From NCBI GenBank assembly GCA_025355875.1, contig JANXYV010000006.1:1-35083 (forward strand): DNA of 35,083 nt. The letters run 5' to 3'. Made by a program: the position numbers and the translations under genes. Under the pieces are notes generated by a model. The model was not told where the DNA came from. It searched no databases and worked only from the letters and a program-made list of their open reading frames with translations. Positions 14,083 through 20,873 of the stretch are shown in pieces. The stretch comes from Prolixibacteraceae bacterium (lineage in GTDB: Bacteria; Bacteroidota; Bacteroidia; Bacteroidales; Prolixibacteraceae). Positions within the stretch are counted from its first letter, which is position 1. Each line of letters begins with the position of its first letter.

Positions 14083-14112
14083 TTTGAAATGTGAAATTTG
14101 AGCCTACATTTG
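14083..14112 (+). promoter_or_regulatory. Promoter of the sulfite-reduction operon leader
   Basis: TTTG (14083-14086), an 18-bp spacer and TACATTTG (14105-14112) match the Bacteroidota -33/-7 consensus exactly. Transcription would start near 14119. This places the leader ORF (14151-14264) and the terminator (14289-14320) inside a roughly 220-base 5' untranslated region ahead of the first structural gene at 14339. Confidence 0.7.
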
Positions 14113-14150
14113 CAGTATTAAACATTTCAAGATATTAAAGTCTTTTATTT

Positions 14151-14264
14151 ATGAATCAATTTTCTTCTGAAATATCAATGATGAAATCTATATCCAATAT
14201 GAAGTCTTGTATGGGAATGTGCATGTTTTTTCATTTGACTTTTCAGAAGTTTAATAAGATATAG
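14151..14264 (+). CDS. Met/Cys-rich leader peptide
   Basis: This 37-codon ORF starts about 32 bases after the predicted transcription start. It encodes Met at 1, 10, 11, 17, 21, 23 and 25 and Cys at 20 and 24; the core MKSCMGMCM has six of nine residues Met or Cys. This is the pattern of a control peptide on which ribosomes pause when sulfur amino acids (charged tRNA-Met or tRNA-Cys) are scarce. It is followed by an intrinsic terminator and then by genes for assimilatory sulfite reduction, which make sulfide for Cys and Met. It probably has no function as a protein. Composition and context are seen; the attenuation role is inferred. Confidence 0.65.
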   Translation: MNQFSSEISMMKSISNMKSCMGMCMFFHLTFQKFNKI

Positions 14265-14320
14265 GTAGGTTATACCAAAGTTTATTTTAGCCCTTCTGAA
14301 ATCCGGAAGGGCTTTTTTTT
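14164..14320 (+). promoter_or_regulatory. Candidate transcription attenuator (alternative hairpins 1:2, 2:3, 3:4)
   Basis: Three 9-base segments can pair exclusively. Segment 1 (14164-14172) and segment 3 (14293-14301) are identical, cttctgaaa. Both are perfectly complementary to segment 2 (14241-14249, tttcagaag), which lies in leader codons 31-33. Segment 3 is also part of the 5' arm of the terminator, whose 3' arm is segment 4 (14304-14313). Pairing 2:3 therefore destroys the terminator (antiterminator), while 1:2 frees segment 3 to form it. A ribosome at Met/Cys codons 20-25 (14208-14225) would leave segment 2 free; one at the stop (14262) would cover part of it. Segment 1 lies upstream of the main control codons, so its role is less clear than in trp. 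Confidence 0.65.
14289..14320 (+). terminator. Intrinsic terminator in the leader of the sulfur operon
   Basis: AGCCCTTC (14289-14296) pairs perfectly with GAAGGGCT (14306-14313), extended by a G-U and a G-C pair, and is followed by eight Ts (14313-14320). It lies between the leader ORF and the DUF2061 ORF on the same strand, so it must be read through for the operon to be expressed. Confidence 0.85.
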
Positions 14321-14338
14321 GATCTGAAACAAACAAAT

Positions 14339-14569
14339 ATGAGCGAAAAATCATACAGAAGTCTGGCAAAGTCAATTTCGTGGCGCACCATTGGAACCAT
14401 TGACACTTTTCTGATATCGCTGATTGTGACCGGTAAACTTGATTTTGCCTTAACCATCGGCGGTGTTGAAGTGTTTACAAAAATGACACTCTATTATTTA
14501 CATGAACGAACCTGGAACCGGATTAGTTTTGGCCGCGTGAAACCGGCAAAAGTTGATTATCAAATTTAA
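14339..14569 (+). CDS. DUF2061 membrane protein
   Basis: This 76-residue protein matches DUF2061: opening SYRSLAKSISWRTIGTIDTF, a membrane segment at about residues 20-35 (FLISLIVTG), a second amphipathic or membrane stretch with ALTIGGVEVFTKMTLYYLHER, and WNRI near the end. Members are small inner-membrane proteins, often encoded beside sulfate-assimilation genes, but with no established biochemical role that I know. Here it is the first structural gene after the attenuator and 6 bp before the siroheme gene, which supports a part in sulfur uptake or reduction. Confidence 0.85.
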   Translation: MSEKSYRSLAKSISWRTIGTIDTFLISLIVTGKLDFALTIGGVEVFTKMTLYYLHERTWNRISFGRVKPAKVDYQI

Positions 14570-14575
14570 AAGGAA

Positions 14576-15028
14576 ATGAAACGAATATTTTTACCTATAT
14601 CCATTGATATATCGGACCAGAAAATTCTGGTCATCGGTGGAGGACAAACTGCATTAAAGAAGATTAGGATTTTGCAGCGGTTTGGAGCCAACATAGAAGT
14701 GGTGGCCGAAAAAATCCAGGATGAAGTTTATGCAACAGGAGTAGTTTGCATGAAAAAAAAGTATGGAAAGGACGATCTGAAAGGATATTTAATGCTCTAT
14801 TCCTGCACCAATCACAATGAGCTTGACCAGCAAATAGCACTAGATGGCAAAGATGCGGGAGTTTTGGTCAATATTCATGACCTTCCGGCTCTTTGCCAGT
14901 TTATTTCTCCAGCCATTTACCAGGATGGTAATATCAGCGTGGCGGTAAGTTCAAACGCAGAGGATGTTCAGGAATCCATTCGGTTGCGAAACCTGATTCA
15001 GAACTATTTGGAAAACATAAAAACATAA
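14576..15028 (+). CDS. Precorrin-2 dehydrogenase (siroheme synthase N-domain, Met8-like)
   Basis: This 150-residue protein corresponds to the NAD-binding part of siroheme synthase: a Rossmann loop KILVIGGGQTALKKI (about 16-30), a strand IEVVAEKI, a VNIHDLPALCQFISPAI motif (VN...F..PA, typical for this family) and SVAVSSNAEDV. It oxidises precorrin-2 to sirohydrochlorin and may also insert iron. It is shorter than Met8 or CysG N-modules (about 190-210), lacking most of the C-terminal helical dimerisation part, as in several Bacteroidota. The substrate comes from CobA, encoded at the far end of the operon; the product siroheme serves CysI. It lies 2 bp before cysJ. Confidence 0.85.
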   Translation: MKRIFLPISIDISDQKILVIGGGQTALKKIRILQRFGANIEVVAEKIQDEVYATGVVCMKKKYGKDDLKGYLMLYSCTNHNELDQQIALDGKDAGVLVNIHDLPALCQFISPAIYQDGNISVAVSSNAEDVQESIRLRNLIQNYLENIKT

Positions 15029-15030
15029 GG

Positions 15031-16806
15031 ATGAACATTCAATTCAATCCGTTAAACGATCAGCAAATTAATGCGTTGACTAGCCTATCTTCAGGTTTGA
15101 CTAGGGAGCAGACAATTTGGGTCAGCGGATATTTTCAAGGACTGTTGGCTAGTGCCGGAACGAATAAAATTCAGGCATCGCCCACTGTAATTCAGAAACA
15201 GAAACTGACTATTTTGTACGGAACTCATACCGGAAGAAGCAAAACCATTGCGGCTCAACTGACTGGAAAGCTTGCCGGCAGCGGGATAGAAGTTCAGTCG
15301 GTGGCTTTGGACGATTATAAAACCCGACAACTGACATCCGAAACTCAGTTGGTTTTTATCGTCAGCACGCACGGCGAGGGAGAACCACCGGCTATGGCCG
15401 AAGATTTTTACCAGTTTATTACCGGAAAGCGCGCGCCACAATTGCCCAATCTGAATTATTCGGTGGTGGCTTTGGGCGATAAAAGCTACAAACTTTATTG
15501 CCAGACCGGAGTCGATATCGATCAAGCGCTGAGCCGGATTGGAGCAAAAAGCATTCTTCCGGTGCTGAAACTGGATGTCGATTTTGAGGACGAAATTGAG
15601 CACTGGATCAACGAGTTTGCTGAAGTTTTTATCCGTGATTTCGCTCCTGAAAATCCGGTCAGCCAAGCAAGAGTCGAAGGTTTTACTGAAGTTTTGTACA
15701 CCCGAAAAAAGCCATTTATGGCAACGGTTCTCGACAAGGTAAAGATTACCGGGCGCGATTCTGACAAGGAGGTTTATCATGTCGAACTTTCGCTCGAAGG
15801 CTCCGGAATTGTCTACGAACCGGGCGATTCGGTGGGGATTCTGGCAAATAATCCGTCAGGCCTGGTCAATGCGATTCTTTCGCATACAGGATATACAGGA
15901 TGCGAATTGGTTCAGGTGAAAGAAGGTGAGTTTTCACTGAAGGAAGCCTTGTTCCAACACCTGGAAATCACGGTTCTGAACCGCGATGTATTGCAGAAAT
16001 TTCAGGAGAAAACCGGAAACCAGCCGCTTCTGGAGATCATTTCCAATGAATATCAACTGGACCAATACCTATACGGGCACGATGTTATCGATCTTTTGGA
16101 AGATTTTCCTTTTCAATTTTCGGCTCAGGAATTTGTCGATATTTTGAGGAGTTTCCCTGCCAGGTTGTATTCCATTTCATCGAGCCAGTCGGCAGTTGGC
16201 GACGAGGTACACATCACCGTTGCAACAGTTCGGTATACCCGAAAAGAACGGGAGCGGGCAGGAGCATGTTCCAGTTATCTGGCCGACCAGATTGAGATAG
16301 ATTCACAGGTTCCGGTTTTTATCGAAAAGAATCCGGCATTTAAACTTCCTGAAAATGAGGAAACTCCGGTGATTTTGGTGGGTGCCGGGACAGGCGTTGC
16401 ACCTTACCGCGCTTTCCTTCAGCAACGTGAGGCGAACAATCAAAAAGGGAAAACCTGGCTTTTCTTTGGCGAACGGCGGTTTCATTCTGACTTTTTGTAT
16501 CAGATTGAGTGGCAGAAGTTGCTGAAAGACGGTTATCTGGAAAAGATTGATGTAGCTTTTTCGCGCGATCAGAAGGATAAAATTTATGTGCAGCATCGCC
16601 TGATCGAACGCCAGAAAGAAATTTTCGAATGGCTGAACCGGGGCGCCAATATTTACCTTTGTGGCGACATGAAACAGATGGCACGCGATGTGCAGAACAC
16701 CTTGCTCCGGATTTTTGAAACCGAAGGCGGAATGACAGAAGAAAAAGCACACGAATTCCTAAAAAAACTAAAAAAAGAAAAACGGTTTCAAACAGATGTT
16801 TACTAA
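15031..16806 (+). CDS. cysJ: Sulfite reductase flavoprotein subunit CysJ
   Basis: This 591-residue diflavin reductase passes electrons from NADPH to the CysI hemoprotein. Order: N-terminal region (1-60), FMN flavodoxin domain (about 65-205; FMN loop LYGTHTGRSKTIA, STHGEGEPP, ALGDKSYKLYC), connecting and FAD domain (about 225-440; YEPGDSVGI, FPARLYSISSSQ) and NADPH domain (about 445-591; ILVGAGTGVAPYRAFLQQRE, WLFFGERRF, YLCGDMKQMARDV) ending in FQTDVY, with the terminal aromatic residue typical of the family. It starts 2 bp after the siroheme gene. A 340-bp gap separates it from cysI. Confidence 0.94.
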   Translation: MNIQFNPLNDQQINALTSLSSGLTREQTIWVSGYFQGLLASAGTNKIQASPTVIQKQKLTILYGTHTGRSKTIAAQLTGKLAGSGIEVQSVALDDYKTRQLTSETQLVFIVSTHGEGEPPAMAEDFYQFITGKRAPQLPNLNYSVVALGDKSYKLYCQTGVDIDQALSRIGAKSILPVLKLDVDFEDEIEHWINEFAEVFIRDFAPENPVSQARVEGFTEVLYTRKKPFMATVLDKVKITGRDSDKEVYHVELSLEGSGIVYEPGDSVGILANNPSGLVNAILSHTGYTGCELVQVKEGEFSLKEALFQHLEITVLNRDVLQKFQEKTGNQPLLEIISNEYQLDQYLYGHDVIDLLEDFPFQFSAQEFVDILRSFPARLYSISSSQSAVGDEVHITVATVRYTRKERERAGACSSYLADQIEIDSQVPVFIEKNPAFKLPENEETPVILVGAGTGVAPYRAFLQQREANNQKGKTWLFFGERRFHSDFLYQIEWQKLLKDGYLEKIDVAFSRDQKDKIYVQHRLIERQKEIFEWLNRGANIYLCGDMKQMARDVQNTLLRIFETEGGMTEEKAHEFLKKLKKEKRFQTDVY

Positions 16807-17146: not shown

Positions 17147-18847
17147 ATGAGCGACGAGATAAACTGGAACGAACTTTCTGAGATCGAAAAAATCAAATAC
17201 GACAGCAATTTTCTGAGGGGAACCCTCGTGGAAAGCCTGGCAGACGCAATTACCGGATCGATGGCTTTTGCTGACACACAGATTTCGAAGTTTCACGGCA
17301 TGTACCAGCAAACCGACCGCGATCTGGAGAAAGAACGTAAGCGGCAGAAACTCGAACCAGCCTATTCCTTCCTGATTCGGGTGCGGATTCCGGGGGGGGT
17401 GGTAAGTCCGAAACAATGGTTGCGTATGGATTCCTTGTCGGAGGAATATGCCAACCATACCCTGAAACTGACTACCCGACAGGCGTTTCAGCTGCATGGG
17501 GTGATCAAGACCAATCTGAAAAAGACCATTCAGGGAATCAATTCCGAATTGATGGATACCATTGCGGCCTGTGGCGATGTCAACCGGAATGTGATGTGCC
17601 ATCCGAACCCAGCCGAGTCGGAATTGCATGCCGAAGTGCTCGAAACGGCCCGGAAGCTCAGCGAACATTTGTTGCCATCGACGACAGCTTATCACGAAAT
17701 ATGGCTCGATCAAAAACTGGTAGCCGATAGTAAAAAAGATGTTGAGCCACTCTATGGCGACCGCTACCTTCCCCGGAAGTTCAAAATTGCAGTGGCGATA
17801 CCACCATACAACGACACCGATCTTTTTTCTCAGGATCTGGGATTTATTGCCATCGTCGAAAACCGGAAAATTACGGGCTACAACGTGGCGGTTGGCGGCG
17901 GCATGGGTTCAACCTTTGGAATACCTGAAGCCTATCCGCGCCTGGCCGAGGTAATTGGTTTCTGTTTGCCTGAACAGGTGATCGATGTGGCCGAGAAGAT
18001 CCTTCTGGTTCAGCGAGATCACGGAAACCGGCTGAACCGGAAACGTTCGAGGATGAAGTACACCATTGACGATCATGGCATCGACTGGTTCAAGTCTGAA
18101 GTGGAAAAATATCTCGGATATTCTTTTCAGGAGGCAAAATCCTATCAATTTACGCGAAACGGCGACCGTTTTGGCTGGAAAAAAGGTATCGATTCGAAAT
18201 GGAGCCTCACACTTTTCGTGGAAGGTGGACGGGTAGCTGACAAATCGGATTTCAAACTCAAATCAGCCCTTCGGAATATTGCACAAGTATTTGATGGGCA
18301 GTTTATTCTGACCGGAAATCAAAACCTGATTATCGCCAATGTGACGGCAGACGAAAAGAAGGAAATCGGCGAAATTCTGAAGAAATACGGAGTTCTGCCC
18401 GGAGAGATTTCCGGACTCCGGCAGAATTCGATTGCCTGCGTGGCCTTGAACACTTGTGGGCTTGCTTATGCCGAAGCCGAGCGGTATTTGCCATCGCTGA
18501 TCACAAAGATTGAAACAATTCTGGCAGAATACGGTTTATTCAACGAGGAGATTGTAATCCGTATGACCGGTTGTCCGAATGGCTGTGGAAGGCCATATCT
18601 GGCAGAGATTGGTTTTGTCGGCAAATCGGAAGGTCATTACAACCTGTATCTGGGTGGAAATTTTACCGGAACACGTCTGAATACCTTGTACAAAGAGACA
18701 CTGACTGAAGATGAAATACTGGCCGAATTGAAACCAATAGTTGCTGATTATGCCGTGAACCGGAACCCTGAAGAGAAATTCGGAGATTTCGTCATCCGGA
18801 AACAGTATGTGAAGGAAACGCTGAAAGGCAGCGATTTTAAACATTAA
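17147..18847 (+). CDS. cysI: Sulfite reductase hemoprotein subunit CysI
   Basis: This 566-residue enzyme reduces sulfite to sulfide by six electrons at a siroheme-[4Fe-4S] centre. The cluster ligands are all visible: C431 and C437 (SIACVALNTCGLAYAEAER) and C476 and C480 (RMTGCPNGCGRPYLAEI). Ferredoxin-like half domains start near residues 60-140 (FLIRVRIPGG, LKLTTRQAFQLHGV) and 330-400, and the siroheme-binding GDVNRNVMCHPNP is at about 142. Length is normal (E. coli 570). It follows cysJ after a 340-bp gap and precedes siroheme-pathway genes by 11 bp. Confidence 0.95.
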   Translation: MSDEINWNELSEIEKIKYDSNFLRGTLVESLADAITGSMAFADTQISKFHGMYQQTDRDLEKERKRQKLEPAYSFLIRVRIPGGVVSPKQWLRMDSLSEEYANHTLKLTTRQAFQLHGVIKTNLKKTIQGINSELMDTIAACGDVNRNVMCHPNPAESELHAEVLETARKLSEHLLPSTTAYHEIWLDQKLVADSKKDVEPLYGDRYLPRKFKIAVAIPPYNDTDLFSQDLGFIAIVENRKITGYNVAVGGGMGSTFGIPEAYPRLAEVIGFCLPEQVIDVAEKILLVQRDHGNRLNRKRSRMKYTIDDHGIDWFKSEVEKYLGYSFQEAKSYQFTRNGDRFGWKKGIDSKWSLTLFVEGGRVADKSDFKLKSALRNIAQVFDGQFILTGNQNLIIANVTADEKKEIGEILKKYGVLPGEISGLRQNSIACVALNTCGLAYAEAERYLPSLITKIETILAEYGLFNEEIVIRMTGCPNGCGRPYLAEIGFVGKSEGHYNLYLGGNFTGTRLNTLYKETLTEDEILAELKPIVADYAVNRNPEEKFGDFVIRKQYVKETLKGSDFKH

Positions 18848-18858
18848 AATTCTACATC

Positions 18859-19206
18859 ATGAAGAGTCCAGTCTTGTTTATCGGACAGAAATTGTCTGAG
18901 TTTACTCATCAATGGTTGTATAATCAGGAAATTGAGTATGTAGAGGTAGATAATTTGACGCCGGTCGAAAAATTTGAAAGCCAAATTTTCGACATTTTTC
19001 TCTTTTTTAGCCCGGCCGGAATAGAAAGTTTCAGAGCCTCCGGAAGTTTTCCTCCTCCAAACTCAGCCATTATGGTGAACGGAAATGCCGCTGCTCAAGC
19101 AGCCTGGCGCTATTTTACCAACAAAGTTTCGTTGATTGACGAACTGGACGAATTGCCGTTTGTGCAGTATTCCATTGCGCGATGGATGAAAGAAAATCAC
19201 AAATAA
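18859..19206 (+). CDS. HemD-like (uroporphyrinogen-III synthase) half protein
   Basis: This 115-residue protein resembles one lobe of uroporphyrinogen-III synthase: a beta-alpha N-terminus with VLFIGQKLS, the family-like strand-loop FDIFLFFSPAGIESFRASG (about residues 48-66), then an IMVNGNAAAQAAW segment corresponding to the place where HemD reads GxxTAxA. Complete HemD proteins have two such lobes and about 250 residues, so this cannot be a normal HemD alone. It could be a decayed copy, an accessory subunit, or a divergent enzyme. Its place between cysI and siroheme genes, 11 bp after cysI and overlapping the next gene by one base, argues that it is expressed and related to tetrapyrrole supply. 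Confidence 0.55.
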   Translation: MKSPVLFIGQKLSEFTHQWLYNQEIEYVEVDNLTPVEKFESQIFDIFLFFSPAGIESFRASGSFPPPNSAIMVNGNAAAQAAWRYFTNKVSLIDELDELPFVQYSIARWMKENHK

Positions 19207-20030
19207 TGAAATCCGGAACAGTCTCAATTTTAGGATGTGGTTGGCTGGGAGTCGCTCTGGCCGGCCATTTGCTCCGGAAAGGATTTTCATTGAAAGGTTC
19301 GGTCACTTCCGCTGAAAAACTGGGATCTCTCCGGAATCTGGGAATCCAAGCTTACCAGATCGTTTTGAATGAAACAAATTTTGAGCTCAGCTCTGAGGTT
19401 TTTTTTGATTGCGACGTGCTGATCATTTCCATTCCACCACGTCGGATTCAAGCCATTGAGCATATATTTCCGGCACAGATTGGGCATCTGATTCCGCTGA
19501 TCAGAAAATCCGGGATTCAAAAAGTTTTGTTTATTTCTTCCACTTCAGTCTATCCTGATTTGGGCCAGATTGCCATAGAAACAGATGTTTCATTGCCTGA
19601 TAAGGAAAGCGGGAATGCCTTGCTCACCGCCGAAAATCTGTTGAAAAGTGAATCGGACTTCAAAACTACTATCCTTCGTTTTGGCGGACTTATCGGGGAG
19701 AACCGTAATCCGGCACGATTCCTTCAGAAAACATCAAAAGCCTTGGCAAATATCCCGGTAAACCTGATTCATCAGGAAGATTGTATCCGAATAATTTCTG
19801 AAATAATTGAACAGGAACTTTGGGGTGAAACTCTGAATGCCTGCTGCCCGGAACATCCGCTCAAGAAAGATTTTTACGGAAAGGCCTCCCAAATTTCAGG
19901 ATTGCCCGAACCACTTATGTCTGATGAAAAGGCGTCGTTTAAGCTGGTCGATAGCAACAAGCTGATCAGATTGTTGAATTACCAATTCCGGTATCCAAAT
20001 CCGATGGATTTTTTGGATTCGATAAAATAG
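19206..20030 (+). CDS. NAD(P)-binding epimerase-like protein (YeeZ-like)
   Basis: This 274-residue extended short-chain dehydrogenase-like protein has an N-terminal Rossmann loop VSILGCGWLGVALAGHLLRK (residues 5-24), the pattern of YeeZ/YPO-type proteins rather than classical epimerases. It continues with a CDVLIISIPPRR strand, KVLFISSTSVYPDLG (SST-x3-Y, the likely active-site Tyr) and TTILRFGGLIG. The substrate is unknown. The ATG at 19206 overlaps the preceding stop (taATG) and leaves the loop at its usual distance from the N-terminus; a frame from 19182 is less likely. Family members recur next to cobA and siroheme genes in Bacteroidota as far as I recall, without a defined reaction. Confidence 0.75.
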   Translation: MKSGTVSILGCGWLGVALAGHLLRKGFSLKGSVTSAEKLGSLRNLGIQAYQIVLNETNFELSSEVFFDCDVLIISIPPRRIQAIEHIFPAQIGHLIPLIRKSGIQKVLFISSTSVYPDLGQIAIETDVSLPDKESGNALLTAENLLKSESDFKTTILRFGGLIGENRNPARFLQKTSKALANIPVNLIHQEDCIRIISEIIEQELWGETLNACCPEHPLKKDFYGKASQISGLPEPLMSDEKASFKLVDSNKLIRLLNYQFRYPNPMDFLDSIK

Positions 20031-20034
20031 GAAA

Positions 20035-20139
20035 ATGGAAAAAGCGATCAGTCATAGTGTTCCGTTGCAGTTGGTTGGTGAAGGAAACCAAAATGGATAT
20101 TCTATTCCATCGGGATTGGGTTGGGGGAGGTTGTTATGA
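20035..20139 (+). CDS. Small 34-residue ORF between YeeZ-like gene and cobA
   Basis: An ATG 4 bp after the preceding stop opens a 34-codon frame that ends with an ATGA overlap with the preferred cobA start (20136). Both junctions are those of translationally coupled genes, and the frame fills the otherwise unexplained gap exactly. The product has no recognisable domain; it ends in a Gly-rich part (GYSIPSGLGWGRLL). It may be a true small protein, or simply a reading frame that delivers ribosomes to cobA, or chance. Low confidence as a protein, moderate as a coupling device. Confidence 0.35.
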   Translation: MEKAISHSVPLQLVGEGNQNGYSIPSGLGWGRLL

Positions 20140-20873
20140 ATCACCTGATTTCCATAGTTGGTGCGGGTCCTGGTGATCCGGAATTACTTACAGTAAAAGC
20201 TTTGAAGCGAATTCAGGAAGCAGATTGTATTTTGCACGATGCCCTTGTGAGCGACGAAATCTTAAATCTTGCCAGGGCTGAAGCGCAACGGATTTATGTA
20301 GGTAAGCTTTATCAGGATGGACAAGACCAAACTGACCGGCAGGAATGGATTAATCAACTGATCATAGATTTGACAGAAAGAGGGCAGAAGATTGTCCGCC
20401 TAAAATCGGGCGATCCGATGATTTTTGGCCGAGGCGCCGAGGAAATCCGGTTTTGCATTGAAAATCAGTTGAACTATGAAGTAATTCCCGGAGTGACTTC
20501 AGCCCTTGGTGCAGCTGCACTTTATGGAATTCCGCTAACCGAGCGTGGCAAAAACAGCATGGTTTTATTTGGAACCGGACATTATCAGGAAGGAGATTTT
20601 TGTGATCTGGAAACCTTTGTTTCGGTACTGAAATCAGATTCACCCATCATTTTCTTTATGGGACTGAATAAACTGGTTCAACTGGCGCAGCGATTGCTTG
20701 AATCTGGTGTTTCATCCGAAATGAAAGTACAAATACTGAGCAAAGTTTCGCAACCCGATTCAAGCACGTTGGAAGCTACAATCGGATCTATTAGCCAAAT
20801 TTTTGAAATTCAGAATCCTCCAATGCCAGCCCTGGTCATTATCGGAAAAAATGCAGAAAGACTGAGCAAATGA
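20136..20873 (+). CDS. cobA: Uroporphyrinogen-III C-methyltransferase (SUMT)
   Basis: This 245-residue S-adenosylmethionine-dependent enzyme makes precorrin-2, the first committed step to siroheme. Motifs: SIVGAGPGDPELLTVKALK (residues 5-23), the DAL loop with CILHDALVSDEIL, VRLKSGDPMIFGRGAEEI (about 85-102), YEVIPGVTSALGAAALYGIPLT (quoted as VIPGVTSALGAAA) and the C-terminal PALVIIGKNA. It is a single SUMT domain, unlike E. coli CysG, where this is fused to the dehydrogenase; here that activity is the separate protein at 14576. ATG 20136 is preferred over a TTG at 20121 because it places GAGPGDP at the usual distance. It is the last gene of the sulfur operon, 18 bp from a convergent gene. 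Confidence 0.92.
   Translation: MNHLISIVGAGPGDPELLTVKALKRIQEADCILHDALVSDEILNLARAEAQRIYVGKLYQDGQDQTDRQEWINQLIIDLTERGQKIVRLKSGDPMIFGRGAEEIRFCIENQLNYEVIPGVTSALGAAALYGIPLTERGKNSMVLFGTGHYQEGDFCDLETFVSVLKSDSPIIFFMGLNKLVQLAQRLLESGVSSEMKVQILSKVSQPDSSTLEATIGSISQIFEIQNPPMPALVIIGKNAERLSK

Follow-up and report, generated by a model that had tools for sequence, protein, structure and literature searches.

A candidate Met/Cys leader-peptide attenuator preceding the sulfite reductase operon of a Prolixibacteraceae bacterium and sulfur genes of its relatives

The DNA analyzed here, termed the window, is a stretch of 35,083 nt from a Prolixibacteraceae genome. Its forward strand carries the siroheme/sulfite-reductase operon that a sequence-only reading of the same DNA had proposed, and the cysG parts, cysJ and cysI are now assigned by TIGR families. 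The operon opens with a gene for a DUF2061 membrane protein (14339..14569, PF09834), followed by cysG_Nterm, the siroheme synthase N-terminal domain (14576..15028, TIGR01470), cysJ, the sulfite reductase flavoprotein (15031..16806, TIGR01931 over cut-off), and cysI, the sulfite reductase hemoprotein (17147..18847, TIGR02041 over cut-off). Farther along are an ORF that found no family match in domain searches (18859..19206), a gene for a NAD(P)-binding/epimerase-like protein (19182..20030, PF13460) and one for uroporphyrinogen-III C-methyltransferase, the cysG C-terminal part (20136..20873, TIGR01469 over cut-off).

A leader region precedes the operon on the same strand; the gene upstream of it lies on the opposite strand. 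The promoter (14083..14112), present as the earlier reading described it, comprises TTTG at 14083-14086, an 18-nt spacer and TACATTTG at 14105-14112, and we take this TTTG-type promoter to be the Bacteroidota motif. A generic sigma-70 scan, not built for that motif, made no call for TTTG-N18-TACATTTG. TAxxTTTG is present in the leaders of 18 of 19 relatives (the exception is L019), and in L020 it lies 61 nt 5′ of the ORF start, in the other 17 at 46–49 nt. From this conserved motif the transcript is predicted to start near 14119, upstream of the leader ORF. The promoter precedes that ORF, which begins 39 nt 3′ of the promoter's TTTG end and is predicted not to be leaderless. Ahead of it the predicted fold has a small 5′ hairpin (AAGAT/GTCTT, 14129..14144); most rows of the relatives' alignment show a similar hairpin (AGA..../..TCT).

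The leader ORF (14151..14264) has 37 codons from ATG to TAG, encodes MNQFSSEISMMKSISNMKSCMGMCMFFHLTFQKFNKI, and shares its position with the ORFs of relatives. The core MKSCMGMCM, already noticed in the sequence-only reading, forms codons 17-25 (14199..14225) and serves as the putative control run, which also appears in the alignment of relatives; its Cys codons (14208-14210 and 14220-14222) are the only two in the core. Segment 2 (TTTCAGAAG, 14241..14249, codons 31-33) is complementary at all nine bases to 14293-14301 and equally to 14164-14172, whose sequence is identical, exactly as had been claimed, and can partner either segment 1 (CTTCTGAAA, 14164..14172) or segment 3. Segment 1 was defined by sequence, fold and permutation, and segment 2 by sequence, duplex energies, permutation and spacing. 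The intrinsic terminator (14289..14320), identified by terminator scan and by covariation, consists of segment 3 (14289-14301), segment 4 (to 14313) and T8 (14313-14320). G-U accounts for one of the 10 pairs in its stem (14289-14313); the stem and T8 of the earlier description stand, and the word ‘perfect’ applies to the stem only with G-U allowed.

The leader RNA folds more stably than all of 200 shuffles (200/200, z -3.4), and at minimum energy it is predicted to adopt the terminated state, with 1:2 and 3:4 paired. Since the 2:3 duplex (-11.9 kcal/mol, p 0.027) is weaker than the terminator (-16.3 kcal/mol), the choice between them would have to depend on folding order or timing. The control run lies 15 nt from segment 2, which in turn ends 12 nt before the stop codon.

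We found cysJ in 26 of 61 genomes searched, with 21 distinct loci having DUF2061. Nineteen of the 21 have, at the same upstream position, a short ORF whose core is Met/Cys, and a terminator follows each of the 19. One of the two exceptions, L012, has an interrupted DUF2061 gene and a misplaced upstream region, and its leader (L121) was recovered by covariance model. At L023 (Prolixibacter) no leader stands beside DUF2061; the contig does carry one (L290) ∼2.2 kb upstream, which precedes cysD-like (PAPS_reduct) and cysN-like (GTPase) genes. Near this Prolixibacter denitrificans leader there is also a DUF805 RNA (RF03081) on the minus strand (L290:882-948). Covariance model R1 gave 18 strong matches (E < 2e-12) in 17 of the 23 same-genus genomes; in the remaining six, close cysJ was not found (four) or lay at a contig start (two). 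One genus genome, G011, carries the leader-DUF2061-cysJ region twice (contigs C16 and C3), each with a separate leader.

A collection of named genomes scanned with DUF2061 yielded 75 loci. A locus was scored positive if it had a terminator and a uORF in which five codons held four or more Met/Cys, including two Cys. This combination occurs at 35 of the 75 loci as against 0 of 1480 dinucleotide shuffles, three of which have such a uORF but no terminator. The positives are named Prolixibacteraceae, Draconibacterium, Mariniphaga, Maribellus, Marinifilum, Labilibaculum, Marinifilaceae or plain Bacteroidota/Bacteroidetes, and include MAGs labelled Odoribacter, Chlorobiota and Ignavibacteriae (labels as deposited). 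The set's Flavobacteria, Actinobacteria and archaea fall among the 40 negatives, together with three loci of the genus whose one-Cys core scores negative under this definition (L037, L039, L040); L102 has only 74 nt upstream. L031 was dropped as a duplicate of L001, and L026, with one Cys in its core, is absent from the terminator and duplex-energy set. On the contig labelled Ignavibacteriae (L072) the leader precedes an operon with DUF2061 whose ORFs read by eye as cysH, cysD, cysN and sulfite reductase. On a contig labelled Campylobacterales (L051) a cysK-like ORF ends just 5′ of DUF2061, with no leader. Named cultured strains also carry leaders: Draconibacterium orientale, Prolixibacter denitrificans, Marinifilum and Labilibaculum.

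In the order at large the leader is uncommon. A scan of 295 genomes found the DUF2061 family in 56, and 29 loci were inspected (the window locus, L257, was left out, and L255 was misplaced). Two of these have almost pure poly-Cys uORFs before DUF2061, CCSCCCCS at L247 (G073) and CCCMCSFCCC at L253 (G296); because no terminator was detected at either, they perhaps represent another mode of control. The third ORF of both operons reads by eye as what is presumably a hemA-like gene. A strict DNA pattern had three matches in the 295 genomes and none in the window's own genome, since the run there does not fit the pattern; a looser pattern run on 11 genomes returned 19 rows, eight of them known leaders. 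Searching the own genome with the single peptide returned the peptide itself and one weak match (E 0.89).

The pairings were examined by partner exchange among 26 leaders less than 80% alike, with 20,000 permutations. Own partners pair at -13.8 kcal/mol for 2:3 against -11.0 for exchanged ones (z -6.7, 0/20,000), and for 1:2 at -16.5 against -12.4 kcal/mol (z -7.3, 0/20,000). The helices change as wholes among leaders, for example CAGAAGG/CCTTCTG, GCAAAAAGG/CCTTTTTGC, TGTGGAGGG/CCCTTCACA and GGGAAGG/CCTTCCC. Two-sided change is seen at 6 of 11 pairs of the terminator helix, with a covariation score of 0/500; these pair counts come from alignment A4, made without cysK, and alignment A3 (all classes) was unused, its cysK terminators being one base off. 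To judge from partner exchange, the 1:2 and 2:3 pairings are under selection. Taken singly, leaders vary: the 2:3 duplex beats shuffles at p 0.05 in 49 of 69 and does not in 20, with six of nine further leaders doing so and three not, and the 1:2 duplex does so at p 0.05 in 15 of 26 and not in 11. Weak single-leader duplexes are frequent in cysK leaders and in the second leaders of Marinifilaceae. The set of 1:2, 2:3 and 3:4 pairings proposed from the window is borne out by these comparisons. The sequence-only reading had suggested looking upstream of DUF2061/cysJ for conserved Met/Cys codons and covariation, and both are there; it had named as adverse the loss of ORF or pairings with the terminator kept in relatives, and the outcome is the opposite.

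Across 58 distinct leaders the gap between the Met/Cys run and segment 2 has a median of 13 nt and falls within 9–16 nt in 50, and segment 2 lies a median of 11 nt from the stop codon. This spacing fits a ribosome that would free segment 2 when stalled in the run and would cover it when at the stop. Marinifilaceae have a tandem arrangement: 11 of 12 loci carry two uORFs with a terminator after each, and L052 yielded a single one. In the second leaders (L053, L056-L061, L063-L065, L107) segment 2 is at the stop codon, and 10 of the 11 peptides end in Pro-Pro-stop; slow release at this Pro-Pro end could keep segment 2 covered.

The leader occurs before other sulfur genes as well. Weaker model matches have the same design with different sequence, and MKANFSYMYMCCCYKQSGEGMFS-type leaders precede cysK in 15 of the 23 genus genomes, including the window's own (a model match on contig C183, 36933-37054). 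No cysK leader is among the model matches of the other eight; the G011 locus, read directly, has none, and the other seven were judged by the matches alone. In G011 a terminator before cysK directly follows the preceding gene, with no leader. Among 30 cysK loci of an 80-genome scan, a Cys-run leader with terminator was found at two, that of the own genome and L205 (CCCCC). MCMCSCM-type leaders stand before an OsmC/ThiS/MetY-like operon at three loci in two genomes, not including the own genome; the MetY-like gene is presumably so named, from its sequence. At a fourth OsmC locus, which is more distant, this kind of leader with terminator is absent. L202 (58% OsmC), with a uORF ending FCACCRMYR and no terminator detected, was excluded from the leader count. 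Model R2, run on 18 handles representing 17 distinct genomes (G030 and G334 are identical), placed leaders upstream of cysK (in Maribellus, Draconibacterium orientale and three more) and also of cysG/J, cysD/N-like, sulfite-reductase-like and DUF4395 genes. Eleven of 40 weak model matches fetched are Met/Cys leaders. Together these matches support the assignment of the leader element to a sulfur-gene regulon that would include cysK in the own genome and further sulfur genes in relatives. Some cysK and DUF2061 loci of relatives are, as a counterpoint, without a leader (G011; most of the order).

Given the computed ORF, codons, pairings, spacing, gene context and conservation, the element at 14083-14320 is very probably a classical ribosome-mediated transcription attenuator, the reading that the sequence alone had suggested and that conservation of ORF, control codons, three pairings and spacing in relatives supports. 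It has a codon run for the pathway end product, a terminator between ORF and first gene and, by sequence and permutation, a 2:3 pairing exclusive with the terminator plus a 1:2 protector; the stall and stop geometry is read from spacing. The steps that follow, from transcription start and stalling to the tRNA signal and read-through, are inferred, as is how much Met matters relative to Cys. Transcription would start near 14119 and a ribosome would translate the leader ORF. Given ample Cys and Met, it would pass the Met/Cys codons, reach the stop and cover segment 2, leaving 3:4 to pair and transcription to end near 14320. With charged tRNA-Cys (probably also tRNA-Met) scarce, it would stall at codons 20-25 and hide segment 1; segment 2, free 15 nt downstream, would pair with segment 3 and allow read-through into DUF2061-cysG-cysJ-cysI. 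If there were no translation, 1:2 would form and the terminator would win by default.

The residues that the ribosome would sense are less certain. Among 16 genus leaders, differences are about equal over the three codon positions (1348, 1224 and 1382 of 4231 comparisons). One Cys column is kept in 16 of 16, using both TGT and TGC, and three Met columns, read from the same alignment, in 16, 16 and 15 of 16. This pattern indicates that the control codons are selected and the remaining peptide is not. In three leaders of the genus (L011, L016, L027) the last Cys codon of the run is Trp (TGG). In the 20 leaders whose run closes with Met, the median distance to segment 2 is 15 nt from that Met and 18 nt from the last Cys; in the 38 with a final Cys it is 13 nt from that Cys. 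Conservation and, weakly, spacing favor Met as part of the stall site. The Met/Cys control proposed earlier is retained as to conserved codons and refined in that Cys appears to be the more general control codon, because uORFs in two other Bacteroidales families are almost pure poly-Cys. We tentatively put at a little under an even chance a two-input regulon, in which a mixed Cys/Met stall site would report lack of either, sulfate/sulfite reduction and cysteine and homocysteine synthesis would be switched jointly with neither repressor nor riboswitch, and the serial pair of Marinifilaceae (the second with segment 2 at the stop behind Pro-Pro) would sharpen the switch.

A possible, somewhat doubtful alternative keeps the same mechanism with Cys codons alone regulatory, Met being there for spacing, re-initiation or descent. 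The near-pure poly-Cys uORFs, before cysK with a terminator (L205) and before DUF2061 with none detected (L247, L253), suggest that Cys can suffice, and Ile or other residues replace Met in some cysK leaders (L295, L303). Yet the Met columns are no less conserved than Cys in an otherwise drifting peptide, and the distances of 15 nt from the final Met and 18 nt from the last Cys weakly favor Met in the stall site. It is very unlikely that the product is an arrest peptide, a Cys/Met-rich nascent chain sensing metal or thiol in the ribosome with codon supply irrelevant: Met/Cys runs do resemble metal-binding motifs and the second Marinifilaceae leaders have the Pro-Pro-stop ends noted above, but the downstream genes are for sulfur assimilation, and there is wide variation in Cys/Met order and elsewhere in the peptide.

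Still less likely is that a metabolite-binding riboswitch or another structured RNA operates here, with the ORF present only by coincidence. The stable fold of the leader would suit it, as would the presence of SAM riboswitches in 11 of the 23 genus genomes, the own genome among them. The leader in the window, however, had no Rfam match at gathering score (Rfam 15, with Bacteroid-trp RF01692, SAM riboswitches and T-box included), and no leader match was found at E up to 0.1 for loci L126, L136, L137, L290 and L296; what is conserved is codons, with TGT and TGC interchanging, and simple pairings, with no common core. SAM-I (RF00162) regulates sulfur amino acid genes, and differs in binding SAM and in having no leader peptide. 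The earlier remark that sulfur control in Bacteroidota is known mainly through SAM riboswitches was fair, and the own genome's SAM-I riboswitch (L235) lies elsewhere, at G000:C44:32664-32765. At another SAM riboswitch (L234, in G012) the downstream ORF, by eye, presumably encodes a DUF39-type homocysteine synthesis protein. That the ORF stands by chance ahead of an ordinary terminator is hardly credible, the leaderless terminator before cysK in G011 notwithstanding, given the opposite strand of the upstream gene, the promoter ahead of the ORF, the absence of such an ORF with terminator from all 1480 shuffles and the conservation in relatives.

The trp/his/ilv attenuators of Proteobacteria have a leader ORF with product codons, 1:2/2:3/3:4 pairings and an intrinsic terminator. 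The present element shares these three features and differs in its Cys and Met codons, its sulfur genes, its Bacteroidota hosts and the tandem copies of Marinifilaceae. Bacteroid-trp RF01692 we take to be a trp leader. It is described, in the available text, as a cis-regulatory motif of Bacteroidetes (PMC2864571), a trait in common with our leader, which differs in having no Rfam match. As far as the accessible text goes, Actinobacteria have Cys leader peptides with Cys codon runs before cys genes and no obvious terminator (PMC1262725), mycobacterial ones acting by translation attenuation as cited in PMC13236596; short ORFs with Cys codons before cys genes are common to both, but our leader has an intrinsic terminator, a mixed Met/Cys run and a predicted start that is not leaderless, and falls outside that class. 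The uORFC-8-2 motif before cysS of Rhodobacterales likewise combines, in the text available, a uORF having tandem Cys codons with an intrinsic terminator (PMC8632094); it concerns a tRNA synthetase gene, two Cys codons, no Met and another phylum, whereas ours precedes DUF2061-cysG-cysJ-cysI and lies outside the motif's definition. For Bacteroidota, the accessible part of one paper speaks of ‘strong clues’ at Flavobacterium psychrophilum operons for amino acids (PMC9723704), that of another describes sORFs resembling leaders in B. thetaiotaomicron (PMC7366714), and the available text of PMC2965389 has no word beginning ‘bacteroid’. In what could be seen of the literature found, leader-peptide attenuation in Bacteroidota amounts to hints or predictions only and Cys leaders are limited to Actinobacteria and Rhodobacterales. 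The literature search returned no Cys/Met leader in Bacteroidota and none for its sulfur genes, a weak negative, subscription papers being mostly outside its scope.

The leader probably lets the cell turn on sulfur assimilation when Cys or Met run short. As a conserved regulon with exact coordinates, present also in named cultured strains, it makes two questions testable: whether transcription-translation coupling in Bacteroidota is tight enough to support attenuation of the classical type, and whether a single leader can combine the signals of Cys and of Met supply; serial attenuators offer a natural test of switch sharpening.

Similar leaders may exist for other amino acids. Seven of the other 29 weak model matches are, we presume, poly-Val/Leu leaders before an ilvD-like ORF. 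Val/Leu-rich leader-like stretches with a terminator occur at L173, L174, L176, L185, L186, L189 and L199 in the same genus and at L292 (G073), before an ORF that we take by eye to be ilvD-like, and from this arrangement leader attenuation seems to be used for branched-chain amino acids too. At L188 (G006:C80) a terminator lies shortly 5′ of an ORF that is, by eye, presumably leuA-like.
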